DNA from: Pseudomonadota bacterium
GTDB taxonomy: Bacteria; Pseudomonadota; Gammaproteobacteria; Burkholderiales; Burkholderiaceae_C
Assembly (NCBI GenBank): GCA_021805825.1
Contig: JAJZEC010000011.1
Location: 1-64,000, forward strand
DNA length: 64,000 bases
Direction of reading: 5' to 3'
The first letter of the stretch is position 1; each line of letters starts with the position of its first letter. The translations under genes and the position numbers were made by a program. The notes below the pieces were generated by a model that worked only from the letters and a program-made list of their open reading frames with translations, searched no databases and was not told the origin of the DNA. Shown here in pieces: positions 50,851 to 64,000 of this stretch.

Positions 50851-52845
50851 ATGCACGGTCTGGAAATCACCCTGTTGTTGCTCGTTGCCGCGGTTGCTGC
50901 GGTGGTGCTGTTTCGCCTGTTGCACCTACCGGCGCTGCTCGGCTACCTGGCGGCCGGCGCGTTGATCGGGCCCAACGCGTTGGGGCTGGCGCTGACCAAC
51001 AACCCGCAGGTGATGCAGCACCTGGCCGAGTTCGGCGTGGTGTTCCTGATGTTCACCCTCGGCCTGGAGTTCAGCCTGCCGCGCATCCGTGCCATGCGCG
51101 GCCTGGTGTTCGGGCTGGGCGCCGCGCAGGTGGCCTCGGTGCTCGTGCTGGTGCTGGGCAGCAGCCTGTTGCTGGGCTGGCTGCTTCCGGGGTGGTGGGC
51201 CCGCCCGCTGGCCTACGGCGTGGCGGCCGGCGGCGTGCTGGCGATGTCCTCCACGGCGATCGTGCTCAAGCTGTTGTCCGATCGCCTCGAACTGGAAAGC
51301 GAGCACGGGCGGCACATCATCGGCGTGCTGCTGTTCCAGGATCTCGCGGTCGTTCCGCTGCTGGTGCTGATTCCCGCGCTGGCCACTCCGGGGGCGGCGC
51401 CGGGCCGCACGCTGGCGCTGGCGGCGCTGAAGGCGGTGGCCGTGCTGGCGCTGATCCTGTTCGCCGGCGGCAAGCTGCTGCGCCCGTGGCTGCGCATGGT
51501 GGTGCGGCGCAAGTCCGACGAGCTGTTCATGCTGAACATGCTGCTGATCACCCTCGGCCTGGCCTGGCTGACCGAGGCGGCCGGGCTGTCGCTGACCCTC
51601 GGCGCCTTCCTGGCCGGCATGCTGATCGCCGAAACCGAGTTCCGCCATCAGGTGGAGGCCGACATCCGGCCGTTCCGCGACGTGTTGCTGGGCCTGTTCT
51701 TCATCACCATCGGCATGCTGCTCGACTGGCGCTATGTGCTGGGCAGCTGGTGGCTGGTGCTGTCGCTGGCGCTGCTCGCGCTGCTGCTGAAGGTGCTGCT
51801 GGTCGCGGGCATCGAGCGCCTGCGCGGAACCTCGGCGGGCACCGCGCTGCGCACCGCGCTGTGGCTGGGTCCCGCGGGCGAGTTCGGCATCGTGCTGCTC
51901 AACACCGCGGCCGCCTACCGACTGCTGCCGCCGCAGGTGGTCAGCCCGGTGCTGGCCGCGCTCGTGCTGTCGATGCTGGCCGCGCCGCTGCTGGCGCAGC
52001 GCATCGACGCGCTGGTGCTCAAGCTGGTGGCCAGCGAGTGGATGCGCGCCTCGTTGCAGCTGACCGACATCGCGCGCAAGACCATCGCCACCCAGCGCCA
52101 TGTGGTGATCTGTGGCTTCGGGCGCTGCGGGCAGAACCTGGCCCGCCTGCTGGAGGAGGAGGCCGTGGCCTATGTCGCCCTCGACCTCGACCCCGAGCGC
52201 GTGGCGCGCAGCGCCGCCGGCGGGCGCAATGTCGTGTATGGCGACGCCACGCGGCTGCACAGCCTGCAGGCCGCCGGCCTGGCGCGCGCCAGCTGCGTGG
52301 CCATCACCTATGTCGACAAGCGCTCGGCACTGCGCGTGCTCGACCTCGTGCAGCGCCACGCGCCGCGCCTGCCGGTGGTCGTGCGCACCCACGACGATGC
52401 CGCCTTCGACCAGCTACGCGCCGCCGGCGCCACCGAGATCGTGCCGGAGGTGCTCGAGGGTTCGCTGATGCTGGCCTCGCACGCGCTGGCCATCGTCGGC
52501 GTTCCGTTGCCGCGGGTGGTGGCGCGGCTGCGCGAGGCGCGGCAGCAGCGCTACGAGCTGCTGCGCGATTTCTTCCACGGCATCGACGATCCGTCGAGCA
52601 GCCTGGAGCAGGCCGCGCAGCCGAGGCTGCGCACCCTGACGTTGCCGGCCGAGGCGCATGCCATCGGGCAGGCCGTGGGGCAGATCGACCTGCAGGGAGC
52701 CACGCTGCTGCAGTTGCGCCGCCGGGATGGTCGCGTGCTGCCCGCCGAGGCGGCGCTGCGGCTGGCCGAAGGCGACACCCTGGTGCTGTCGGGCTCGCAG
52801 CCCCAGCTGGCCCTCGCCGAAGACCTGCTGCTCGGCGGCCGCTGA
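50851..52845 (+). CDS. Monovalent cation:proton antiporter-2 (Kef-type) with RCK domains
   Basis: 664-residue CPA2-family transporter. The membrane half (about residues 1-390) has LLGYLAAGALIGPNALGL, EFGVVFLMFTLGLEFSLPRIR, VLAMSSTAIVLKLLSDR, GVLLFQDLAVVPLLVL and LGAFLAGMLIAETEFRHQVEA. A TrkA-N/RCK domain follows (HVVICGFGRCGQNLARLL, about residue 415), then a TrkA-C domain at the end. Kef proteins export potassium in response to electrophile-glutathione adducts; the organism makes glutathione, but no KefF/G-type partner is adjacent, so regulation is uncertain. Confidence 0.9.
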   Translation: MHGLEITLLLLVAAVAAVVLFRLLHLPALLGYLAAGALIGPNALGLALTNNPQVMQHLAEFGVVFLMFTLGLEFSLPRIRAMRGLVFGLGAAQVASVLVLVLGSSLLLGWLLPGWWARPLAYGVAAGGVLAMSSTAIVLKLLSDRLELESEHGRHIIGVLLFQDLAVVPLLVLIPALATPGAAPGRTLALAALKAVAVLALILFAGGKLLRPWLRMVVRRKSDELFMLNMLLITLGLAWLTEAAGLSLTLGAFLAGMLIAETEFRHQVEADIRPFRDVLLGLFFITIGMLLDWRYVLGSWWLVLSLALLALLLKVLLVAGIERLRGTSAGTALRTALWLGPAGEFGIVLLNTAAAYRLLPPQVVSPVLAALVLSMLAAPLLAQRIDALVLKLVASEWMRASLQLTDIARKTIATQRHVVICGFGRCGQNLARLLEEEAVAYVALDLDPERVARSAAGGRNVVYGDATRLHSLQAAGLARASCVAITYVDKRSALRVLDLVQRHAPRLPVVVRTHDDAAFDQLRAAGATEIVPEVLEGSLMLASHALAIVGVPLPRVVARLREARQQRYELLRDFFHGIDDPSSSLEQAAQPRLRTLTLPAEAHAIGQAVGQIDLQGATLLQLRRRDGRVLPAEAALRLAEGDTLVLSGSQPQLALAEDLLLGGR

Positions 52846-53187
52846 GGCCCTCGGCAAGACCCGATTGCTGCGCCGCGAGGCGCCGATCGGGCCCGCTGCG
52901 GCAACGCCTGCGCGTTGTCCGCAAGTCACCGATGCTGCAACGCAGCGCCACTTGGGCGGCCACGCACGCCGGCGCGCATGGGTGTTTTCCCGGGTCGCAA
53001 CGCATTGACACGCCTTTCGCGGACGTGAATACTGATCGGCACACTGAACACGGTTCAACCTATTGAACTTCTGCGCGGTGTGCTGCAGTGGCAGTGCCTG
53101 GCGGTTTTCCACCCCGCTTCCGGCTGCGAGGCCGCGGGGATTTTCGATGGCGGCAGTGTCGGTCAAGGACACGACGAGGAGGAGACG
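52846..53187 (+). other. Intergenic region and leader upstream of the ABC/rhodopsin-like operon
   Basis: 342 bases between the Kef-type gene and the binding-protein gene. The first 150 bases show nothing clear. A promoter and nested inverted repeats occupy 53005-53068 (listed separately). From there to the GAGGAGGAG ribosome-binding site is an untranslated leader of about 145 bases. The in-frame upstream extension of the binding-protein ORF (to 53080) looks non-coding. Confidence 0.6.
53005..53068 (+). promoter_or_regulatory. Sigma70-type promoter with overlapping inverted-repeat operators
   Basis: A perfect -35 TTGACA (53005-53010) is separated by 17 bases from AATACT (53028-53033), a 4-of-6 match to the -10 consensus; transcription would start near 53040. 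Just downstream are two overlapping perfect inverted repeats sharing a half-site: TGAAC-ACG-GTTCA (53045-53057) and GTTCAA-CCTA-TTGAAC (53053-53068). Their position over the early transcribed region is that of repressor operators, LacI- or GntR-like in general appearance. The regulator is not encoded nearby in the window. Confidence 0.75.
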
Positions 53188-54357
53188 ATGAAACTGTGCA
53201 TGAGATGGTGCCTCTCGCTGGCGCTTCTGTTCGCGGTGTCCGGCTATGCGCTGGCCGCCGGGGTCGACGAGCTGCCGGCGAACATCCAGAAGCAGCTGTA
53301 TTCCAAGCAGATGCTCGACCCGCAGCAGCCGATAGGGCCCAGCGTGTACCGCAACTGGAAGGCCAAGAAGGGGCCGCCGTGGACCATCGGCTATGCGAGT
53401 TCCTATGCGGGCAACACCTGGCGTGCCGCGGCCATGGAACGTCTGCAGAAGGACATCATTCCCAAGTGGAAGAAGCTCGGGCTGCTGAAGAAGGTGATCA
53501 TCACCCAGTCGAACCTCAAGGACTCGGTGCAGATCCAGCAGATGCGTCAGCTGGTCGATGAAGGCGTCAACGCCATCATCGTCTGCTGCTCCAACCCGAC
53601 CGCGCTGAACGCGACGGTGAAGTACGCCTACGACCACGGTGTTCCGGTGTTCTCCTTCACCGGCTACCTGACCTCCCCCTACGCGGTCAACGCCTCGACC
53701 AACTACCAGCTCGGCGGCTACGACCTCGGGCGCTGGATGACCCAGCAGATCGGCGGCAAGGGCAACGTGCTCGACGTCGAGGGCATCCCCGGAACCTCGG
53801 GCTCGGATTCGCAGGATCGCGGCATCAAGGCCGGTCTGGCCTCCGCGCCCGGCGTGAAGATCGTCGGCGACGTGGCCGGCATGTGGACCGACCAGATCGC
53901 CCAGTCGGCGGTGCAGCAGTGGCTGGCGACCCACCCCGGCAAGCTCGATGGAATCGTCGTCCAGTCGGCGGCGGAGATGGGCGTGCTGCGCGCCATGGAG
54001 CAGTCGGGCCGCAAGATGATTCCGGTCAGCATCGGTGGCGAACTCGGCGCGCTGTGCTACTGGCGCAAGCACCCGGACTTCATCAGCGCGGCCTACCAGC
54101 TATGGCCTCCGGGGGATGAGATCGAACTGGCCTGGAACATCATGATGCGCACCCTCGAGGGCCAGGGCCCGAAGATCGAGTCGATCCTGGTGCCCCCGGT
54201 CAAGCTGAGCTACAAGGACGTCGCCGCCCGGCTGCCCGCCAACTGCGACGAGAACTCCGACGGCTGGTTCAACGTCGGCACCGCCCGCTGGGGAAGCCCG
54301 TCGTACCTGGACAACTTCTTCGTGCATCCGGCCGATCCGACGAAGTACAAGCCCTGA
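53188..54357 (+). CDS. Sugar-type ABC transporter periplasmic binding protein
   Basis: Periplasmic binding protein of the RbsB / type 1 fold, 389 residues. Signal peptide MKLCMRWCLSLALLFAVSGYALA, then alternating lobes: WTIGYASSYAGNTWRAAAMERL, QIQQMRQLVDEGVNAIIVCCSNPTAL, YDHGVPVFSFTGYL, NYQLGGYDLGRWMTQQIG and GTSGSDSQDRGIKAGL. The ATG at 53188 has a GAGGAGGAG site. No sugar kinase or catabolic gene is adjacent, so the ligand is open; it could be a sugar, nucleoside or other small molecule. First gene of the ABC/rhodopsin-like/flotillin/symporter cluster. Confidence 0.88.
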   Translation: MKLCMRWCLSLALLFAVSGYALAAGVDELPANIQKQLYSKQMLDPQQPIGPSVYRNWKAKKGPPWTIGYASSYAGNTWRAAAMERLQKDIIPKWKKLGLLKKVIITQSNLKDSVQIQQMRQLVDEGVNAIIVCCSNPTALNATVKYAYDHGVPVFSFTGYLTSPYAVNASTNYQLGGYDLGRWMTQQIGGKGNVLDVEGIPGTSGSDSQDRGIKAGLASAPGVKIVGDVAGMWTDQIAQSAVQQWLATHPGKLDGIVVQSAAEMGVLRAMEQSGRKMIPVSIGGELGALCYWRKHPDFISAAYQLWPPGDEIELAWNIMMRTLEGQGPKIESILVPPVKLSYKDVAARLPANCDENSDGWFNVGTARWGSPSYLDNFFVHPADPTKYKP

Positions 54358-54396: not shown

Positions 54397-56154
54397 ATGA
54401 GCTCCGCACCTTCCTCGACGAGCGCCGGCGCGGCCGGCGGCCAGCCGCAGGCGCATGCCTACGAGCTGCCGCGGCGCGCCGAGCCCGGCGCGGACGCCGC
54501 GCCGCCGGCCATCGTCGCCGGGGAGATTTCCGCGGTCAACGTGCGCAAGCATTTCGGGGTCACGCGCGCGCTGGACGGATGCACCTTCAACGCCCACATG
54601 GGCGAAATCCACGCCATCGTCGGCGGCAACGGCTGCGGCAAGAGCACCCTGGCCAAGGTGCTCTCGGGCGTGCTGCCGATCGACGGCGGCCAGGTCTCGG
54701 TGCTCGGCCACGTGCCGAGCACACCCCACGATGCCCGCGCGCTGGGCATCGCCACCGTCTTCCAGGAAGTGCTGGTCGCCGACGAATGCAGCCTGGTCGA
54801 CAACCTGTTCCTCGGTGCCGATCGGCTGTGGACCCGCGATCGCCCCGAACGCGACAAGCTGGCCGCGGCGCACGAACTCATGGCCGAACTGACGGGCCTG
54901 GAGATCGACGTCAGGACCCTGGTGGGAACGCTGCCGCTGAGCATCAAGCAGTGGATCACGATCGGGCGCGCGCTGCTGAGCAATCCCAGGGTGCTGATCC
55001 TGGACGAATCCTCCGCGGCCCTCGATCTGGACTCGACGCAGCGGCTGTTCCACAAGATGCGGCAACTGCGTGACCAGGGCTCGGCGATCCTCATCGTGAC
55101 CCACCGCATCGCCGAGCTGATCCAGATCAGCGATCGCGCCACGGTGCTGCGCGACGGCCGCGACGTGGGCGTGCTCGAGCGCCAGGACATCACCGAGCGC
55201 AACCTGCTCGACCTGATGACCGGCCGGCAGGCGCCGGCGCCGATCTCCCAGGGGCAGGCGCGCGAGGTGCTGCGGCACGAACTGGTGATGAAGACCAGCG
55301 GTCTGCGGCTGGGCCCACGCAGCGCGCCCATCGACTTCTCCCTGCACAAGGGCGAGGTGGTCGGCCTGACCGGGCTGGACGGCCAGGGTCAGGGCGAATT
55401 CATCCGCGCGCTGGCCGGCATCGAGCGCGCGCTGGGCGATGCGCCGACGGCGCGCGCCCGCGAGGGCAGCGGCCTCGCGGAAATCCGCGGCCTTCCGGAC
55501 GCGGCGCGCAACGGCGTGGTCTATGTCTCCGGCGACCGCAAGAAGGAAGGCATCTTCGCCAACCTGAGCATCTATGAAAACCTGCTGATGCCCCTGTATC
55601 GGCGCACCGCCCGCGCGGGCTGGCTGTCGGTGATCAACCGGCGCGCCCTGCAGAGCGTGTTCGACTGGGAGATCGAGCGCCTGGCGGTGCGCATGGGCGC
55701 GCGCAGCAACAAGATCACCTCGCTGTCGGGCGGCAACCAGCAGAAGGTGCTGATCGGGCGCGCCTTCGCGCTCAATCCCGACATCCTGCTGCTCAACGAC
55801 CCCGCGCGCGGCATCGACATCGGCGCGAAGGCCGAGCTGTACAAGCACCTCAGCGCCTTTGCCCAGCGCGGCAAGGCCGTGGTGTACCTGTCGAGCGAGA
55901 TCGAGGAATTCGTCGGTTTCTGCACCCGTGTGCTGGTGTTCCGCCACGGCACGATCTTCGGCGAATTCACCGGCACCGACATCCAGCCGGCGCGCATTCT
56001 CGAATCCATGTTCGGCCAGGCGGGCGCGAACCCGGCCGCCGTCGGCGACGAGCTCGGGGAGATCGACCACGAGCAGGCGCGGCTGCGCGAATTGCGCAAC
56101 CTGCCGCCGTGGATCCGCGCGGCGCGCCTGAGCGCTTCCGGAGAACAGGCATGA
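54397..56154 (+). CDS. Sugar-type ABC transporter ATPase with two nucleotide-binding domains
   Basis: RbsA/MglA-like double ATPase of 585 residues. Domain 1: Walker A VGGNGCGKST (residues 75-84), a shortened signature around LPLSIKQWITIGRAL, and Walker B VLILDESSA. Domain 2: degenerate Walker A GLDGQGQGEF, as usual for this family, a canonical signature LSGGNQQK (from residue 443), but LLLNDPARGID where the Walker B and catalytic glutamate are normally D-E; here they are N467-D468. A 40-residue low-complexity N-terminus precedes domain 1. The stop overlaps the first permease gene (ATGA). Confidence 0.9.
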   Translation: MSSAPSSTSAGAAGGQPQAHAYELPRRAEPGADAAPPAIVAGEISAVNVRKHFGVTRALDGCTFNAHMGEIHAIVGGNGCGKSTLAKVLSGVLPIDGGQVSVLGHVPSTPHDARALGIATVFQEVLVADECSLVDNLFLGADRLWTRDRPERDKLAAAHELMAELTGLEIDVRTLVGTLPLSIKQWITIGRALLSNPRVLILDESSAALDLDSTQRLFHKMRQLRDQGSAILIVTHRIAELIQISDRATVLRDGRDVGVLERQDITERNLLDLMTGRQAPAPISQGQAREVLRHELVMKTSGLRLGPRSAPIDFSLHKGEVVGLTGLDGQGQGEFIRALAGIERALGDAPTARAREGSGLAEIRGLPDAARNGVVYVSGDRKKEGIFANLSIYENLLMPLYRRTARAGWLSVINRRALQSVFDWEIERLAVRMGARSNKITSLSGGNQQKVLIGRAFALNPDILLLNDPARGIDIGAKAELYKHLSAFAQRGKAVVYLSSEIEEFVGFCTRVLVFRHGTIFGEFTGTDIQPARILESMFGQAGANPAAVGDELGEIDHEQARLRELRNLPPWIRAARLSASGEQA

Positions 56155-57599
56155 GTGCACAGGCGCAGGCGGCCGGGCTGTCGCAGCAGTCGACGGCCTC
56201 GGGCACCTATCTGTTCGTGCCCATCGTGCTGATGCTGGCGCTGCTCATCGTGGCCGTGCTGCGCACGCCGAACCTGGTGACCAGCTCGGGCATCGGAGGG
56301 GCGATCATCGTGGCCACCCCGCTGGTGCTGGCCACCTATGCCGTGATGGCGCTGGCGATCGCCGGTCGCGGCACCGTGGATCTGTCGATCGGCCCGCTGA
56401 TCGGCTTCATCAACGTGACCCTGGTTCAGCTGTACGGAGCCCACCTCATCGGCTCGCCGTTCAGCTTCTTCCTGTGGGCGGCCTTCGTCGGCGTGAGCTA
56501 CCAGGTGGCGATGGCGCTGATCATCATCTTCATCCGCGTGCAGCCGATCATCGTCTCCCTGAGCGGCTACCTCGCGCTGTCGGGGATCAACCTGGTCATC
56601 ATGGCCCGTCCCGGCGGCACGACGCCGGACTGGATGTCCAACTGGGGGCAGGGAACCTCCGTCTGGTCGCCGGTGCTGGTCGTGCTGGTGCTCAGCACGC
56701 TGGCCTGGCTGCTGTTCACCCTGACCCCGTTCTACGGCCACCTGCGCCTGATGGGATCGGACGAGCGCGCGGCCTATACCAGCGGCGTGCGCATCAACAT
56801 CGTCCGCCTGGGCGCGCACGTGATCGCCGGCCTGTACGCCTCGCTGGCGGCCATCACCTACACCTCGCTGATCGGCTCGGGCGACCCGACACAGGGCACC
56901 ACCTACACCCTGATCGCCATCACCGCGCTGGTGCTCGGGGGCGCCAGCCTGGCTGGCGGGCGCGGCGGCGCCATCGGTTCGCTGCTCGGGGCGCTGAACC
57001 TGTACCTGATCACCGCGGTGCTGGCCACCTTCAACTTCGGCGCGGTGCAAAGCTTCGTCACCGACCTGTCCTACGGCGTGGTGCTCGTGGCTTCGCTGCT
57101 GCTCACGCTGGCGCTGCCCTTCGTGCGCCGGGTGGTCGGCGAGTTGTCGCCGCTGCTGTTCTTCGTCATCTGCTCGCTGATCACGCTCGGGGTGATCCTG
57201 CACGCGACCTTCGACTACGCGCCGGCCGCCACCCCTGCCACCGTGGCCACCAAGGCCACCCCGCGGCTGCAGCCACCGCTGCATCCCGAACAATCGAGCC
57301 CGCGCCTGGCCGCGCGTGAAGAGACCCTGCCCTTCGAAGCCCCGGCCGCGGCGCGCGGCGCGCAGTCCGCCACCGCCTCCGGACTGGCATGGCCGGTCAC
57401 CGCGCTGATCCTGCTGCTGCTGGCCGCCACCCTGGCGCTGCGCATCGCCCCGGTGCAGGCGCGAGCCGCTCCGGGTCTGGCGCCGCTCGTCCACCTGGTC
57501 ATCGCTGCCGTGATCCTGCTCGGCATCTTCACCGTGTCGGGTCATGCGCCGTGGGCCGCCGGGCCTGCGTTGCACGTGCACCGGGAGGCAGGGCGATGA
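56151..57599 (+). CDS. ABC transporter permease (RbsC-like) with C-terminal membrane extension
   Basis: Sugar-type ABC permease, 482 residues. The core (about residues 1-355) has AIAGRGTVDLSIGPLIGFIN, VQPIIVSLSGYLALSG, LRLMGSDERAAYTSGVRIN and LVLGGASLAGGRGGAIGSLLGAL, all BPD_transp_2 hallmarks. Usual members are 320-350 residues; here an alanine/proline-rich linker and two further helices (TALILLLLAATLALRIA and HLVIAAVILLGIFTV) extend the C-terminus. ATG 56151 overlaps the ATPase stop, and the stop overlaps the second permease start, so the three are translationally coupled. Confidence 0.9.
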   Translation: MSAQAQAAGLSQQSTASGTYLFVPIVLMLALLIVAVLRTPNLVTSSGIGGAIIVATPLVLATYAVMALAIAGRGTVDLSIGPLIGFINVTLVQLYGAHLIGSPFSFFLWAAFVGVSYQVAMALIIIFIRVQPIIVSLSGYLALSGINLVIMARPGGTTPDWMSNWGQGTSVWSPVLVVLVLSTLAWLLFTLTPFYGHLRLMGSDERAAYTSGVRINIVRLGAHVIAGLYASLAAITYTSLIGSGDPTQGTTYTLIAITALVLGGASLAGGRGGAIGSLLGALNLYLITAVLATFNFGAVQSFVTDLSYGVVLVASLLLTLALPFVRRVVGELSPLLFFVICSLITLGVILHATFDYAPAATPATVATKATPRLQPPLHPEQSSPRLAAREETLPFEAPAAARGAQSATASGLAWPVTALILLLLAATLALRIAPVQARAAPGLAPLVHLVIAAVILLGIFTVSGHAPWAAGPALHVHREAGR

Positions 57600-59059
57600 G
57601 CGCTGCGCAGCCCGATCCGGGCGCCCAGCCGGGCGCAGCCCAGACCTCCGCGCCCGCCGCGCAGGATGCTGCCGCGACGCGTACGCCCGGCACCCTGCTG
57701 AAGTGGCTGGGCCTGCCGATCGCCCTGCTCATCGCGGCGGTCGGCTTCGGCCTCGGCCTGGGCCAGGGCCTTCCGGTGCAGGAGGTCATCTTCTACACCG
57801 TGGCCACGTTCGCGCTGGTGACCTGGGTGTGGCGCTACTACACCCAGCATGGCGGCGCGGCCCGACCGGGCAGCGGTGCGGCCACCGAGGCCGCCGCCGC
57901 CCAGCGCGCCAGGCCCAGGCCTGTGCGGGCCTTCCTGCTGCGCTGGCGCGCGGTGCTGATCGGCATCCTGCTGGTGCTCGCGGTGTTCGGCATCGCCTCG
58001 GTCAGCGTGAGCGGCTTCTTCAACGCCCTGAACATCATTTCCGCGCTCGTTCTCATCGCGCTGCTGATCTTCTCGGCGTTGATGGGGCGCTTCGTGCAGG
58101 CCAACAAGAGCGCCTTCATCGGCCTGGTCGTGCTGGTCGGACTATTCGTCATCGGCTCGCTGGAAATCGACGGATTCATCTCCCCCGGCAACCTGCGCTC
58201 GATGCTGCTGTTCGCATCCTTCCTCGGTCTGGCCTCGGTCGGCCAGACCCTGGTGGCGCTGCTCGGCGGCCTCGACCTGTCGATCCCCTTCGTCATCGGC
58301 GCCGCCAATGTCGGCCTGCTCTACCTGATCAGCCTGGGCATGCCGTCCTGGCTGGCGGTGATCGTGGTGCTGGTGATCGGCGCGCTGATCGGCCTGGTCA
58401 ACGGATTCCTCAGCTTCCGCCTGCAGGGCCAGGCTCTGATCCTGTCGCTGGGCGTCGGATTCGCGGTGTCCGGCAGCACGCAGATCGTGACCAGCCTGGG
58501 TTCGAGCTTCGCCGGCAACGTGTTCGGCCAGGTGCCGCACTGGCTGAGCAACCTGGCGGCGATGAACGGCAGCACCTTCGGGCTGCCGATTCCGCCGGTG
58601 ATCCTGGTGTGGATCGCGGTGGCCATCGGGCTCATCCTCGGCATGCGCCATACGGCCTACGGCCGCTACGTCTACGCCCTCGGCGGCAACCGCACCTCGG
58701 CCAGCCGGCTGATGATTTCCGAACGGCGCTACTGGATCGCGGCCTACGCCGTCAGCGGCGTGTCCTCGGCGCTGACCGGCGCGCTGCTGCTGGGCTGGAG
58801 CGGCGGTGGCTTCATCGGCGTCGGTCAGCCCTACCTGTTCACCACGCTGGCCGCGGTGGTCATCGGGGGCACCTCGCTGCTCGGTGGCGCCGGAGGCTAC
58901 GGCTTCACGGTCATCGGCGTGCTGGTGCTGCAGGTGCTGACCTCCTTCCTGGTGGGCATCGGGCTGACCTTCCAGTGGCAGCAGTTCATCTTCGGCCTGC
59001 TCATCCTGCCGATGGTCGCGCTGTATGCGCGCTCGCCGCATATCCGTACCCAGGTCTGA
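57596..59059 (+). CDS. ABC transporter permease (RbsC-like) with N-terminal membrane extension
   Basis: Second permease, 487 residues. An extra N-terminal region (about 1-110) carries two helices (LGLPIALLIAAVGFGLGLGQG and EVIFYTVATFALVTWVWRY) and an alanine-rich linker. The BPD_transp_2 core follows: ASVGQTLVALLGGLDLSIPF, VIGALIGLVNGFLSFRLQGQ, MRHTAYGRYVYALGGNRTSA and VVIGGTSLLGGAGGYGFTVIG. With the first permease it would form a heterodimer. ATG 57596 overlaps the first permease stop. The rhodopsin-like gene follows about 100 bases later. Confidence 0.9.
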   Translation: MSAAQPDPGAQPGAAQTSAPAAQDAAATRTPGTLLKWLGLPIALLIAAVGFGLGLGQGLPVQEVIFYTVATFALVTWVWRYYTQHGGAARPGSGAATEAAAAQRARPRPVRAFLLRWRAVLIGILLVLAVFGIASVSVSGFFNALNIISALVLIALLIFSALMGRFVQANKSAFIGLVVLVGLFVIGSLEIDGFISPGNLRSMLLFASFLGLASVGQTLVALLGGLDLSIPFVIGAANVGLLYLISLGMPSWLAVIVVLVIGALIGLVNGFLSFRLQGQALILSLGVGFAVSGSTQIVTSLGSSFAGNVFGQVPHWLSNLAAMNGSTFGLPIPPVILVWIAVAIGLILGMRHTAYGRYVYALGGNRTSASRLMISERRYWIAAYAVSGVSSALTGALLLGWSGGGFIGVGQPYLFTTLAAVVIGGTSLLGGAGGYGFTVIGVLVLQVLTSFLVGIGLTFQWQQFIFGLLILPMVALYARSPHIRTQV

Positions 59060-59081
59060 GACCCGGGCGCATCACGTCATC

Positions 59082-59165
59082 ATGGGGAGCCAAATGCAAG
59101 TCCAAGCAAGCGCTGGCCGCCGCATCGAGCGCGGCGCGGCAAACCTTCCGCGGGGCCGGCGATGA
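59082..59165 (+). CDS. Possible 27-codon leader ORF coupled to the rhodopsin-like gene
   Basis: An ATG at 59082, with a second in-frame ATG at 59094 preceded by GGGGAG, opens a short frame ending at a TGA that overlaps the next gene's start as ATGA. The peptide is basic and shows no recognisable family. It may only be a chance frame, but the overlap mirrors the other couplings in this operon. Confidence 0.25.
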   Translation: MGSQMQVQASAGRRIERGAANLPRGRR

Positions 59166-59866
59166 GCGCGGCCGGAGTGTTGCAGGCCACCGACGTGGTG
59201 GGCGGATCCTTCCTGCTGCTGCTGGCGGCGACCGCCGCCACCGCGGTGCTGCTGCTGCTGGGCACCGGCTGGGCGCAGCACAAATGGAAGCTCCCGGTGG
59301 CCCTGGCCGGGGTGGCGATGCTGGTGGCCGCGCTGCTGTACCTGCAGGCCGACGCGATCTGGCTGTCGGTGCACCAGATGCCGGTGATCTACCGCTACGT
59401 CGGCTGGATGATCATCATGCCGCTGCAAGTCCTGGCCCTGTACTTCTTCATCCAGGTGCAGGCGAACCTGTCCTACGGACTGTTCTGGCGGCTGCTCGTG
59501 GTCTCGCTGGTCATGGTGCTGGCGCGCTACATGGGCGAGGTGGGTTTCTTCTATCCCACGCTGGGCTTCCTGATCGGCCTGGCGGCCTGGCTGTACATAC
59601 TCGGCGAGGTCTTCTTCGGCCGCATGAGCGAGGTCAACGGCCGCAATGGCTCGCATTCGAGCCAGACCGCGTTCTTCTGGCTGCGCCTGATCGTCAGCGT
59701 GGGATGGGCCGTCTATCCGCTGTGCAATTTCATCGGCAGCTTCGCCGGAGGCATCGACGAAGGCAAGCTGACGATCATCTACAACCTGGCCGACCTGGTG
59801 AACCTGGTCGCGTTCGGGCTGATCGTGCTGACCGCCGCGGTGCGGGGTTCGGCATCGGCACGTTGA
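59162..59866 (+). CDS. Proteorhodopsin-like seven-helix protein lacking the retinal lysine
   Basis: 234-residue, seven-helix membrane protein homologous to type-1 (microbial) rhodopsins. Conserved: RYVGW (R78, W82), RYMGEVGF in helix D, GWAVYP in helix F (W182, Y185, P186) and IYNLADLVN in helix G with D211. Aligned to proteorhodopsin by memory, the retinal-binding lysine of helix G (K231) is leucine L215 (codon CTG 59804-59806). The proton acceptor D97 is G81, the donor E108 is A92, and H75 is leucine. No other lysine lies in the helix G core. A covalent retinal Schiff base is therefore impossible; the fold and pocket aromatics remain. Function unknown; position suggests partnership with the ABC importer or flotillin. 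Confidence 0.88.
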   Translation: MSAAGVLQATDVVGGSFLLLLAATAATAVLLLLGTGWAQHKWKLPVALAGVAMLVAALLYLQADAIWLSVHQMPVIYRYVGWMIIMPLQVLALYFFIQVQANLSYGLFWRLLVVSLVMVLARYMGEVGFFYPTLGFLIGLAAWLYILGEVFFGRMSEVNGRNGSHSSQTAFFWLRLIVSVGWAVYPLCNFIGSFAGGIDEGKLTIIYNLADLVNLVAFGLIVLTAAVRGSASAR

Positions 59867-59941
59867 GTTCCAAGGTGACGGCCATGCGCATCGGCGACGC
59901 CTTGCCCCTGGCTCTGCATTGACCCCGAAAAGGATCGAAGT

Positions 59942-61672
59942 ATGAACGGCTCCGACATCATAGCGATCGTCATCCTGGTCGCGATCGTCATCGCGGTCGC
60001 TGTCTACCTGCTGCACTGGCTGTACCGAAGGTCGTCGAAGGACGTGTCCTTCGTGCGCACCGGACTGGGCGGCGAGAAGGTCGTGATGGGCGGCGGCGCC
60101 TTCGTGCTGCCCATCGTGCACGACGTGACCCCGGTGAGCATGAACACCCTGCGCCTGGAGGTGCGGCGGGCACGCGAGCAGGCCCTGATCACCCGCGACC
60201 GCATGCGCGTCGACGTCACCGTGGAGTTCTTCGTGCGGGTGATGCCCCAGGAGGAATCGGTGGCCGCGGCCGCGCGTACCCTGGGCCAGCGCACGATGAA
60301 CCCGGAAAGCCTGAAGGATCTGGTGCAGGGCCGCTTCGTCGACGCCATGGGCCTGGTCGCCGCCAAGATGACCATGGAGGAGATCCACGAGCATCGCGGG
60401 CGCTACATCAGCCAGGTGCGCGAGCAGGTGGCCGACGCCATGACCCACAATGGCCTCGAGCTCGAGGCGGCCTCGCTGACCGGCCTCGACCAGACGGACA
60501 TGAAGCTGTTCAACCCCTCGAATGCCTTCGACGCCGAGGGCCTGACGCGCCTGACCGAGGAAATCGAGTCGCGCAAGAAGAAGCGCAACGACATCGAGCA
60601 GGACACCGCGGTGGCCATGCGTCGCAAGAATCTGGAGTCCGAGCAGCTGACGCTGAGCATCGCCCGCGACAGCGAGTACTCGCGCCTCGAGCAGGAGCGC
60701 GAGGTCGCGGTGCGGCGGGCGCAGCAGCGCGCCGAAATCGCCCTCGAGAAGGCCGAGCGGGAGCGTGAGACCGAGGAGGCGCAGATCCGCGCCGCCGAGG
60801 AAGTCGAGAAGGCGCGCATCCGCCAGGAGCGGGCGATCGAGGCGGCGCGCATCGAGCGTCAGCTGGAGATCGAGCGCAAGGAACTGCAGCGCCGGCGCGA
60901 CGTGGAAATCGAGGACCAGGAGCGCATGATCGCGGTGGCGCAGAAGGCCAAGGCGCAGGCCGAGGCGCAGGCCATCGCCGAGGGCGCCAACGCGCAGGCG
61001 GTACAGGCGCGGGAGAAGGTGGTGTCGGTGCGCGAGCGCGAGATCGCCGAACGGCGCAAGCTCATCGAGCTGCTGCTGGCCGAGCAGGAGGCCGAGCGCG
61101 AGGCCATCAAGCTGCGTACCATCGCCGCGGCCGAGAAGCAGGCCGCCAGCGAGCGCGCGGCCGCCGAGCGCATCACCGCGGAAGCGGCGCAGGTTCGCTA
61201 TGCCGTCGATGCCGAGGGCCAGCGCGCCCTCAACGAAGCGGAGAACCTGCGCTCCGACGCCAGCCGGCGCAGCGGCCTGTACCGCAAGCTGCTGGAAAAG
61301 CTCCCCGACATCATCCGCGAAAGCGCCAAGCCGATGGAGCGCATCGACTCCATCAAGATCCTGCAGGTGCAGGGCATGCCCGGACTCAGCGGGGGCGCTG
61401 GCGGCGGTGGGGACGGCGCCTCGGGCGAAGCCGCGGGCGGCGGTGCCAACCTGGCCGACCACGCGGTCAATGCCGCGCTGCGCTACCGCGTGCAGGCACC
61501 CTTCGTGGAGGAAATGCTCAACCAGATCGGCATCGCGCCGGGCTCGGTGTCGACCCTGGGCAACCTGATGCACGGCGAGGGCAAGGGACTGGCCGACATC
61601 GTGGCCGCCAAGCAACTGGGCAGCCTGGCGGCGGGCTCCGCACCTGAGGGCGACGCCGAATCGCGTCACTGA
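59942..61672 (+). CDS. Flotillin-like SPFH-domain membrane scaffold protein
   Basis: 576-residue protein of the flotillin/YqiK group. One N-terminal helix (DIIAIVILVAIVIAVAVYLLHWLY, residues 4-27), then the SPFH domain (VRTGLGGEKVVMGGGAFVLPIVHDV, ITRDRMRVDVTVEFFVRV, about residues 35-190). A very long charged coiled coil rich in Glu/Arg/Ala spans about residues 195-420. The C-terminal part has RKLLEKLPDIIRESAKPMERIDSIKIL, a glycine-rich linker, and a final helical tail. Flotillins oligomerise and organise membrane microdomains. AAAGGA precedes ATG 59942, 75 bases after the rhodopsin-like gene. Confidence 0.9.
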   Translation: MNGSDIIAIVILVAIVIAVAVYLLHWLYRRSSKDVSFVRTGLGGEKVVMGGGAFVLPIVHDVTPVSMNTLRLEVRRAREQALITRDRMRVDVTVEFFVRVMPQEESVAAAARTLGQRTMNPESLKDLVQGRFVDAMGLVAAKMTMEEIHEHRGRYISQVREQVADAMTHNGLELEAASLTGLDQTDMKLFNPSNAFDAEGLTRLTEEIESRKKKRNDIEQDTAVAMRRKNLESEQLTLSIARDSEYSRLEQEREVAVRRAQQRAEIALEKAERERETEEAQIRAAEEVEKARIRQERAIEAARIERQLEIERKELQRRRDVEIEDQERMIAVAQKAKAQAEAQAIAEGANAQAVQAREKVVSVREREIAERRKLIELLLAEQEAEREAIKLRTIAAAEKQAASERAAAERITAEAAQVRYAVDAEGQRALNEAENLRSDASRRSGLYRKLLEKLPDIIRESAKPMERIDSIKILQVQGMPGLSGGAGGGGDGASGEAAGGGANLADHAVNAALRYRVQAPFVEEMLNQIGIAPGSVSTLGNLMHGEGKGLADIVAAKQLGSLAAGSAPEGDAESRH

Positions 61673-61704: not shown

Positions 61705-62136
61705 GTGACCACGCTGCATGCCACGCACAGGCGCCTCGCGGTAGCCAGCAACTGGGCGCTGTGCGGATCCTTCGGGCTGTGCCTCATCCTTTCGGGATTC
61801 GCGCTGGCGCTGCCCCAGGCGATCCTCGGGGGTTTCGCGCTGCTGGTGGCGGCCTTCATCGCCCATCTGGTGATCAACCGACTGTTCCGCCAGTCCTTCA
61901 CCACCGGCGAGGTCGTCACCGGTTTCGTGGCCTTCGGCGTCGGCGTCGCCAGCTTCCTGGCGACGGCCCTCGCCGGATCCGGGGTCGGGCGCACGCAATT
62001 CGATGCCGGGCTGGCTGGATTCGCCTCGCTGGTGCTGTGCTTCCTCGCGTACCTGGTCACCAAGTTCGGCCTCAAGGGGGCGTTCTCGCAGTTCCACGGC
62101 AGCTCCGGCGCGCGGGAGGACACCCTTGCCAGCTAA
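61705..62136 (+). CDS. Four-helix membrane protein of unknown function
   Basis: 143-residue protein with four predicted helices: WALCGSFGLCLILSGFALAL, AILGGFALLVAAFIAHLVI, VVTGFVAFGVGVASFLATAL and AGFASLVLCFLAYLVTKFGL. I do not recognise a family. The start is GTG 61705 with GGAGAA six bases upstream. It lies 32 bases after the flotillin-like gene and overlaps the symporter gene by 11 bases, so it is probably co-translated with the symporter and may be an accessory subunit (inference). Confidence 0.75.
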   Translation: MTTLHATHRRLAVASNWALCGSFGLCLILSGFALALPQAILGGFALLVAAFIAHLVINRLFRQSFTTGEVVTGFVAFGVGVASFLATALAGSGVGRTQFDAGLAGFASLVLCFLAYLVTKFGLKGAFSQFHGSSGAREDTLAS

Positions 62137-64000
62137 GCTTGTTTGGCTCTGCGCCTTCGTCGGCGCCTATGCGGTGTACTGCCTGTACTGGGGCGTGACC
62201 GCCGCGCGCCTGGGGCGCGGCGCCAGCGACTTCCTGCTCGCCGACCGCAGGCTGCCGCCGTGGGTGTTCGTGGTCATGGCCACCGCGATGAGCTTCTCGG
62301 GGTGGTTCTTCCTCGGGCAGCCGGCGCTGGTGTTCCGCGACGGCCTGGCCTTCCAGGAAACCGCGCTCGCCGCGGTGGCGATTCCCCTCGTCGGGGTGCT
62401 GTTCCTCAAGCGCCAGTGGTTGCTCGGCAGGCGCTACGGACACACCTCGGCGGCCGACATGCTGGGCCATTATTTCGGTGGCGAGACCATTCGCCTGGTC
62501 GTGATCCTGATCGGCCTGTGCTTCGCCGTTCCCTTCGTCGGCATGCAGCTGGGCGCCACCGGTTCGCTGCTGCAGCACCTGTCCGACGGCGCCATCGACC
62601 CGACCCTGGCGATGTGGATGCTGGGTTTCGTGCTGTTTCTCTACGTGTGCTTCGGCGGCATGCGCGGCGCCGCCTATGCCGGCGTGCTGCAGGGGCTGCT
62701 GCTGGCGGTCGGCCTGGTGGCCATCGGGGTGTACGCGCTGGAGCAGATCGGCGGCCTGCGGCCGCTGATCGAGGCCCTGGCACGGCTGGGCCATGGTGGC
62801 GCCGGCGCCTGGGGGGCGACTGCCGACGGCGACAGCGCCTACCTGTCGATTCCCGGGGTGGTGCAATTCACCGCGGGCCTGGGACGGGGCAATCCGGTGG
62901 GCGGCATCTGGACGACCTCGATGATCCTCAGCTACGTGCTGGCGCTGATGGGCCTGCAGGCCTCGCCCGCTTACACCGTCTGGGCCCTGGGCTGCGGCAG
63001 CGTCAAGGGCTTCGCGGCGCAGCAGGTGTGGGCGTCGGCGGCGGTCATGGGGCTGATCCTGCTCGTGTTCCCGGCGCTGGCCGGCCTGGGTGCGCAGTTT
63101 CTCGGCGCCGCGCCGGCCGGCAGCGCTCCGGCGCTGGCGCATGCGCTGCCGGTGCTGGGCGCCGGGCACGCGATGCGGCTGGATGCACTCTACCTGGCCG
63201 CGGTGGCGCGCACCGAACCCTGGTTCGCCGCGCTGCTCGCGGTGTGCGCGCTGGCCGCCATCCAGGCCGTCACGGCAGCTTTCGCCAGCGCGAACGCGAC
63301 GGTGTTCGCGCGCGACATCTGCCAGCGCTACTTCGATCCGCAGGCCGACGACCGCAGGATCGTCCTCTACGCGCGAGTGGGTATCGGGCTGACCCTGTTG
63401 TCGGCCCTGTTGCTGGCCACCTATGCCCCGGGGGCGCAAGCCGCCCTCGGCGTGCTGGCGCTGTCGCTGGGGCTGCAGCTGCTGCCGGCGCTGGCCGCGG
63501 TGTGCTGGCTGCCGTGGATCACGCGGCCGGCGGTTCTGCTGGGCCTGTTCTTCGGCATGGCCGCGGTGGTGCTGACCGAGCCCCTGGGCGGCGCCATCAC
63601 CCACTTCGTCGGTTTCGATCTGCCCTGGGGCCGCTGGCCGTGGACCATCGACTCGGCGGGCTGGGGGATTTTCGTCAACGTCCTGGTGTGCCTGGTGATT
63701 TCCTGGATCAGCCACCGCGACGACGAGCGCGCCCATCGCCAGAAGTTCCATGACTTCCTGCGCGGCTTCAGCGCGCCGGGCCAGCGCCGCCTGCGCGCGC
63801 TGGCCTGGGCGATGACCCTGGCCTGGCTGTTCTTCGCCGTCGGCCCGGGGGCGCTGATCGGCAACGATGCCTTCGGCGCGCCCGGCGCCGGAGCGGGTCA
63901 CTGGGTGCTGGGCGTGCCGTCGCTGTGGGCGTGGCAGCTCATCTGGTGGGTGCTGGGGGTGCTGGTGATCTGGTTCCTCGCCTACAAGATGGAACTGTCG
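62126..64000 (+). CDS. Sodium:solute symporter family protein, 3' end missing
   Basis: Large SSS-family secondary transporter; 625 codons are visible with no stop before the window ends, which is why the ORF track omits it. The frame opens with TTG 62126 behind GGGAGGA (62114-62120), overlapping the end of the four-helix gene. Recognisable segments: GASDFLLADRRLPPWVFVVM, ATAMSFSGWFFLGQPALVF, YGHTSAADMLGHYFGG, FLYVCFGGMRGAAYAGVLQG, and the late FASANATVFARDICQRY. A dozen or more helices. The many ORFs listed here in other frames (e.g. 62143-63753) are shadows. Substrate unknown. Confidence 0.88.
   Translation, partial: MPAKLVWLCAFVGAYAVYCLYWGVTAARLGRGASDFLLADRRLPPWVFVVMATAMSFSGWFFLGQPALVFRDGLAFQETALAAVAIPLVGVLFLKRQWLLGRRYGHTSAADMLGHYFGGETIRLVVILIGLCFAVPFVGMQLGATGSLLQHLSDGAIDPTLAMWMLGFVLFLYVCFGGMRGAAYAGVLQGLLLAVGLVAIGVYALEQIGGLRPLIEALARLGHGGAGAWGATADGDSAYLSIPGVVQFTAGLGRGNPVGGIWTTSMILSYVLALMGLQASPAYTVWALGCGSVKGFAAQQVWASAAVMGLILLVFPALAGLGAQFLGAAPAGSAPALAHALPVLGAGHAMRLDALYLAAVARTEPWFAALLAVCALAAIQAVTAAFASANATVFARDICQRYFDPQADDRRIVLYARVGIGLTLLSALLLATYAPGAQAALGVLALSLGLQLLPALAAVCWLPWITRPAVLLGLFFGMAAVVLTEPLGGAITHFVGFDLPWGRWPWTIDSAGWGIFVNVLVCLVISWISHRDDERAHRQKFHDFLRGFSAPGQRRLRALAWAMTLAWLFFAVGPGALIGNDAFGAPGAGAGHWVLGVPSLWAWQLIWWVLGVLVIWFLAYKMELS

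Follow-up and report, generated by a model that had tools for sequence, protein, structure and literature searches.

The rhodopsin homologue encoded near the end of the window (the whole stretch of 64,000 nucleotides analysed here) is a lysine-less FArhodopsin, an assignment well supported by homology and phylogeny, and so belongs to an already-described group and is not a new kind of protein. What is new here is the single loss of the lysine, the absence of pump and retinal genes, the link to an importer operon, the permease extension and the cultured plasmid carriers. Independence from retinal is also well supported by gene content, and we give an even chance to the reading that the protein has a rhodopsin fold, binds no retinal and serves as a subunit of an importer that flotillin organises and that takes up a small hydroxy-acid or lactone. 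We know of no earlier non-photic, non-sensory job in a nutrient importer for a type-1 rhodopsin; the subunit role, if true, would be the first. FArhodopsins are abundant in SAR11 and other aquatic bacteria. With FArhodopsin standing alone in its genome, without retinal biosynthesis and one-to-one with an enlarged permease, membrane transport replaces light as the question to ask, and the operon context suggests possible partners and a possible class of substrate.

The protein matches the Pfam family Bac_rhodopsin (E 3.7e-22; 79.3 bits against a cut-off of 24.6) and aligns over its full length with solved proteorhodopsins at E-values of 1e-34 to 1e-54, far above chance. Its best solved match is PsFAR (PDB 9r21; E 7e-54), which is also the top Foldseek match of a low-confidence AlphaFold2 model, built from three input sequences, that has seven helices and a pLDDT of 48. 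Profile searches of viral contigs with two profiles find no relatives. The reading frame is intact in every FArhodopsin member, and a dN/dS of 0.24 against an 81%-identical relative from the same genus indicates that the gene is under purifying selection, although it is evolving faster than six of the seven neighbour genes compared (0.02-0.13). On the minus strand, a stop-free frame (59072-61669; 865 aa) mirrors both the FArhodopsin and the flotillin genes; it is not a gene and was rejected as a GC-rich coding shadow with a low-complexity translation.

The name FArhodopsin was introduced in 2023 for rhodopsins that adjoin flotillins; in most of the freshwater ones, the lysine is reported to be replaced by Q, T, L or R (PMC10308929). 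In the window, the flotillin gene lies 75 bp downstream of the rhodopsin gene on the same strand (Flot, 125.7 bits, plus Band_7), and the window protein is therefore a flotillin-associated rhodopsin. A tree of 44 proteins places it inside a FArhodopsin clade of 17 rows that includes 9r21 (support 99/96). All 14 lysine-less members of the tree form one clade (100/100), so that the lysine was lost once, one loss being sufficient, and the residue then changed between Q, L and R.

Table 1. Features of the rhodopsin locus, in window positions.
Feature	Position	Strand	Remarks
Promoter-like TTGACA-17-AATACT	53005..53033	+	Upstream of importer genes; consensus match only, weak
Substrate-binding protein, Peripla_BP_4	53188..54357	+	Frame open from 53080; likely ATG 53188, then signal peptide
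ABC importer ATPase, carbohydrate-uptake-2 type, double-domain	54397..56154	+	
ABC permease 1, BPD_transp_2	56151..57599	+	C-terminal extension of ~150 aa, extra hydrophobic segments
ABC permease 2, BPD_transp_2	57596..59059	+	N-terminal extension of ~160 aa, extra hydrophobic segments
Lysine-less FArhodopsin gene	59162..59866	+	ATG start, 234 aa
Gly81 codon, proton-acceptor Asp position	59402..59404	+	
Arg122 codon	59525..59527	+	Invariant in lysine-less members
Leu215 CTG codon, Schiff-base lysine position	59804..59806	+	CAG/Gln in closest relative
Flotillin	59942..61672	+	Band_7 and Flot domains; one N-terminal membrane segment
143-aa membrane protein	61705..62136	+	Four hydrophobic segments, no family match, conserved after flotillin
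Sodium:solute symporter family protein	62126..64000	+	Cut by window end; ends at contig position 64156

Residues were assigned by aligning the window protein to Med12 proteorhodopsin and 22 pumps. The helix-G Schiff-base lysine of light-driven type-1 rhodopsins is replaced by Leu215, and the only lysines of the protein (K41, K43 and K202) offer no alternative because they lie at helix ends or in loops, with none in a helix core. The acceptor Asp is replaced by Gly81, the donor Glu by Ala92 and the equivalent of His75 by Leu59; the positions of the DTE pump motif read G81, I85 and A92. R78, W82, W182, Y185, P186 and D211 are retained, and the motifs RYVGW, RYMGE, GWAVYP and IYNLADLVN are present. 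Column 122 holds Arg in 13 of 13 lysine-less proteins, Gly in pumps and Glu in lysine-bearing FArhodopsins, and E120 of PsFAR aligns to it. The solved structure PDB 9r23 is a PsFAR double mutant, H84V/E120G; judging from the titles and sequences of the PDB entries, this column may block retinal, and a search of the literature on PsFAR found no paper supporting such a block.

Lysine-bearing FArhodopsins (9r21 and those of genomes G1000 and G1145) already lack the donor Glu and have Glu for the pump Gly at window position 122 and Gly for the pump Tyr at position 148, where Gly is found throughout the FArhodopsins. Among lysine-less proteins, one relative keeps Asp81 together with Gln at the lysine site, several retain His59, and some others have His or Pro in place of Arg78. 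The closest relative, the 81%-identical one, also has Gln at the lysine site, with a codon one base away from that of the window protein. The most likely order of loss in the clade would be the pocket first, then the lysine and then, in some lineages, other photochemical residues, because the lysine-bearing members are already altered and the acceptor Asp or the His persists in some lysine-less ones. Twelve columns, among them G34, W37, R122, G148 and W173, are invariant across the 13 lysine-less proteins and differ from the commonest pump residue.

These results agree with most of what the first-pass annotation had read from the sequence. The Pfam and proteorhodopsin matches and Leu215 bear out a lysine-less rhodopsin homologue, and the alignment to Med12 and the pumps confirms the landmark motifs, the three replacements at positions 81, 92 and 59 and the persistence of the six structural residues; the proposed search for a lysine elsewhere in the pocket finds none. 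Other claims stand in part. The joint loss of all photochemical residues is true of the window protein but not of the clade, in which some members keep Asp81 or His59. As for conservation of L215 within a clade, the absence of lysine is clade-wide, but the residue taking its place varies. Selection for a new role fits a gene that has lost covalent retinal binding and yet is kept by selection, but the group to which it belongs had already been described.

Retinal genes were surveyed in 12 FArhodopsin genomes and eight pump genomes. The host genome (3.35 Mb; 100% complete, 0.45% contamination) contains a single rhodopsin, and no other rhodopsin is found in 11 of the 12 FArhodopsin genomes, that is, in the host and ten others. 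In profile searches of draft assemblies, on which all these gene absences rest, Blh (PF15461) above the cut-off is missing from the same number of FArhodopsin genomes (11/12), lysine-less or lysine-bearing, whereas it is present in all eight pump genomes and in G1051, the sole FArhodopsin genome that also has a pump. In one genome (G206), a sub-threshold Blh fragment of 22 bits lies at the end of a contig. Full-length lycopene cyclase is distributed in the same way, being absent from 11 of the 12 and present in the eight pump genomes and G1051; the matches seen in FArhodopsin-only genomes were discounted as partial, below 30 bits and mostly confined to the flavin-binding motif. The single squalene/phytoene-synthase match of the host is HpnD-like and not CrtB, and its 145.7 bits are under the HpnD cut-off.

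The rhodopsin and flotillin genes follow those of an ABC importer (Table 1), in which the permease 1 gene has ATGA overlaps with both the ATPase and the permease 2 genes. The promoter-like site upstream has 10 of 12 matches, one such site being found against 0.5 expected from shuffles, and no terminator-like sites are found between 52700 and 62300, which is weak evidence. Beyond the window, the contig encodes an Fe-alcohol dehydrogenase (Fe-ADH), a 129-aa protein, an alpha/beta hydrolase, an MBL-fold lactonase, a succinate-semialdehyde dehydrogenase and an IclR regulator. The order of substrate-binding protein, ATPase, two permeases, FArhodopsin and flotillin is shared across distant lineages, with the small membrane protein, the symporter, the 129-aa protein and the hydrolase close by; the substrate-binding protein gene is kept upstream of FArhodopsin across loci, and the importer-FArhodopsin-flotillin core is absent from pump loci. 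Directly upstream of the operon, outside the conserved cluster, lies a gene for a KefB/KefC-like cation:proton antiporter with a TrkA domain (50851-52845). In Variovorax paradoxus VAI-C (L089, 9929-11617), a flotillin 57% identical to that of the window sits in an ABC-transporter/aromatic-degradation cluster with no rhodopsin, which suggests a wider use of this flotillin family in catabolic import operons.

Both permeases are enlarged. A homologous operon of Rhizobium tropici comprises the small protein, the hydrolase, the substrate-binding protein, the ATPase, two permeases and the succinate-semialdehyde dehydrogenase, but lacks both FArhodopsin and flotillin. The R. tropici permeases measure 324 and 339 aa, against ~450-500 aa in FArhodopsin operons, in which permease 1 is lengthened by extra hydrophobic segments at its C-terminus and permease 2 by such segments at its N-terminus. 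All 15 FArhodopsin loci examined align with the permease-2 extension, whereas the R. tropici operon does not; the extension is present in every one of the 12 FArhodopsin genomes and in none of the eight pump genomes. A sample of 351 genomes of the host family contains seven in which the extension is matched over its full length, and these seven coincide with the FArhodopsin genomes of the sample; three others match it in part, at 20-22 bits. Of the 1002 plasmid records that match permease 2, five reach a coverage of at least 80%, all of them FArhodopsin records. By these matches, every FArhodopsin genome tested has the extension and almost no other genome does, and no report linking it to FArhodopsin was found in the literature. 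In the lysine-bearing operons (L076 and L077, from G1000 and G1145), the permease-1 open frame is ~750 aa long, beyond most lysine-less ones.

The operon also occurs as an annotated plasmid island in cultured Rhizobiales, namely Martelella sp. AD-3, Hoeflea sp. IMCC20628 and Pararhizobium gei. Martelella lutilitoris has matching operon genes in the same order, and in Shinella sp. PSBB067 the FArhodopsin, together with importer and flotillin matches, lies on a record of 4.6 Mb that is listed as a plasmid. Among the sources of carriers are oil-polluted soil, a plant and water. A plasmid labelled "Dysgonomonadaceae bacterium zrk40", a Bacteroidota name (L084, CP070278.1; 246,192 bp), closely resembles the M. 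lutilitoris plasmid (NZ_CP066788.1; 246,197 bp) both in size and in FArhodopsin matches, and the FArhodopsin that it encodes is nearly the same as that of Martelella sp. AD-3; this is likely a case of co-culture or mislabelling and not of cross-phylum transfer. Since cultured Rhizobiales carry the operon on plasmids, its role is open to experiment, and the three island carriers named above are amenable to knock-outs and pull-downs.

The catabolic genes point to a substrate class. The succinate-semialdehyde dehydrogenase scores above both NCBIfam cut-offs (834 against 828 and 746 against 646 bits). The host lactonase is AhlS-like, with scores below both the AhlS (348 against 475) and the AttM (116 against 390) cut-offs, and its Fe-ADH is below the cut-off for 4-hydroxybutyrate dehydrogenase, whereas the islands of three Rhizobiales plasmids encode AttM-family lactonases above the cut-off (415-427 against 390). 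From this gene content, the substrate would be a small hydroxy-acid or lactone of the gamma-butyrolactone/4-hydroxybutyrate type; the exact compound is uncertain because the host lactonase and Fe-ADH fall below their family cut-offs. The most conserved pieces in most FArhodopsin operons are the hydrolase (83-99% identity) and its 129-aa partner (72-94%), with less conservation in two operons, and both occur without FArhodopsin in Rhodococcus and Peribacillus, beside an aldehyde or succinate-semialdehyde dehydrogenase. This widespread pair of a 127-143 aa protein and a distinctive alpha/beta hydrolase is in fact seen in Rhodococcus, Peribacillus, Rhizobium and haloarchaea (L085, 8539-11402; L086, 8598-11513; L087, 10711-18338; L088, 7544-8912), near an aldehyde or succinate-semialdehyde dehydrogenase in all except the archaeon, and forms an uncharacterised catabolic module.

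In the mechanism that we propose, the seven-helix FArhodopsin, which no longer carries retinal, would be an accessory subunit of a complex for import across the membrane and would need no light for this. Together with flotillin it would gather and stabilise the ABC importer with its extended permeases, and the 143-aa membrane protein and the sodium:solute symporter may join the importer in the same membrane patch. The importer would take up the hydroxy-acid or lactone, and the hydrolase, lactonase, Fe-ADH and succinate-semialdehyde dehydrogenase would convert it to succinate. That FArhodopsin and flotillin bind the extensions of permeases 1 and 2 as a constitutive, light-independent part of the ABC complex and thereby organise an uptake patch is a shade less probable than even. 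Contact of FArhodopsin with the permeases and flotillin, and the scaffold role, are presumed from the operon and the co-occurrence. Although permease 2 and FArhodopsin are still found together at large divergence, their strict co-occurrence could also reflect a single inherited or transferred gene block instead of contact.

Several other roles can be weighed against the same evidence. Structural or regulatory participation in the importer is favoured by the context among the roles that the first-pass annotation had suggested (ligand binding, sensing or scaffolding), and a sensor is less likely because the operon has no transducer gene. A sensor whose emptied pocket binds a non-retinal molecule, perhaps the operon substrate, and signals through a protein partner, as has been suggested for the opsin-related proteins (ORPs) of haloarchaea, would accord with a conserved rhodopsin framework that has lost its retinal site and with an operon that, being linked to a substrate, could need one. 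Yet no transducer, kinase or chemotaxis gene is present in any FArhodopsin operon read, regulation is already covered by IclR or LacI genes, and ORPs typically adjoin HAMP/MCP transducers (PMC4915679), so that this role is unlikely. A passage or gate that works without light, for an ion or for the substrate and coupled to the symporter or the importer, is quite improbable: descent from an ion pump, the transport operon and the clade-specific Arg122 and Gly148, in place of the pump Gly and Tyr, speak for it, but the acceptor and donor carboxylates are gone, and in some members the helix-C arginine as well.

Roles that keep a tie to light fare worse. Some lysine-lacking opsins can work, if less efficiently, with aminated retinylidene retinals (PMC4915679), and retinal could be scavenged, so that a light-responsive protein might hold retinal or another environmental chromophore non-covalently; we consider this very unlikely for a genome without Blh or full-length CrtY and for a protein with Arg122 in the PsFAR Glu120 column, which is altered in the H84V/E120G structure, and with Gly148 throughout the group for the pump Tyr, the more so as carriers are not restricted to water. 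For marine FArhodopsins, whose carriers always had a pump as well, the proposed role is that of a pump helper in mixed complexes within flotillin patches, and the same paper left open whether a pump is also encoded in the genomes of the lysine-less freshwater forms (PMC10308929). This idea does not fit the present lineage because 11 FArhodopsin genomes have neither a pump nor a second rhodopsin, and for the window protein it can be regarded as contradicted and extremely improbable. Nor is the protein at all likely to be a decaying light-pump relic kept by linkage in a useful operon. The loss of many functional residues and a dN/dS above that of most neighbours would suit decay, but the intact frames, the purifying selection and the 12 clade-specific invariant columns would not. 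A retinal-free importer subunit is the reading that we prefer.

Among known systems, the FArhodopsins are closest. They share with the window locus a proteorhodopsin-family clade, a flotillin gene directly downstream on the same strand and, close by, the neighbours typical of FAR clusters: a symporter, a translocator, a hydrolase, an Fe-ADH and a small sterol-carrier-like protein. The sterol-carrier label of this last, the 129-aa protein, is weak because its match to SCP2 reaches only 13 bits, under the cut-off. Freshwater FArhodopsins also resemble the window protein in having no lysine (PMC10308929). Marine FArhodopsins differ in keeping the Lys, where the window protein has Leu, in DTT, DTL or DNI motifs, where it has G81, I85 and A92, and in a co-resident pump, whereas the window locus has no pump and no Blh and includes a catabolic operon of the lactone/hydroxy-acid type.

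Two other groups of altered opsins are more distant. The first-pass annotation had named Rh-noK, which is a different case, although it too is a rhodopsin homologue without the Schiff-base lysine: in the summary given by PMC10308929, betaproteobacterial Rh-noK is related to xanthorhodopsin and stands in tandem with a functional pump. Membership was rejected for the window protein, which falls in the FArhodopsin clade, adjoins flotillin and is the sole rhodopsin of its genome. Some Burkholderiales pump genomes encode a second type-1 rhodopsin that keeps the Schiff-base Lys and has Lys at the proton-donor position (D-T-K; L005, L007, L010, L021-L023). In G065 and G208 this second rhodopsin and the pump are in tandem. 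Haloarchaeal ORPs are likewise type-1 opsin homologues with Arg or Leu for the lysine and a degenerate retinal pocket, but they arose within the haloarchaeal sensory opsins, many of them beside HAMP/MCP transducer genes (PMC4915679); the window operon has no such adjacent gene, and ORP membership was also rejected.

The importer itself has the parts of CUT2 ABC importers (a Peripla_BP_4 substrate-binding protein, a double-domain ATPase and two BPD_transp_2 permeases) but differs from them in its permeases, which are ~450-500 aa long with extra membrane segments instead of ~325-340 aa. For the catabolic genes, the nearest parallel is blcABC/attKLM of Agrobacterium, whose regulator BlcR belongs to the IclR family. 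In that operon, under the repressor BlcR (AttJ), gamma-butyrolactone is converted to gamma-hydroxybutyrate and then to succinate semialdehyde (PMC5924552). The window operon has the same set of a lactonase, an alcohol dehydrogenase, a succinate-semialdehyde dehydrogenase and an IclR-family regulator. The Rhizobiales FArhodopsin islands are closer still, with a true AttM-family lactonase, whereas the window genome has the sub-cut-off, AhlS-like one and, in addition, the alpha/beta hydrolase with its 129-aa partner. To this catabolic set, the window operon adds the importer/FArhodopsin/flotillin block.
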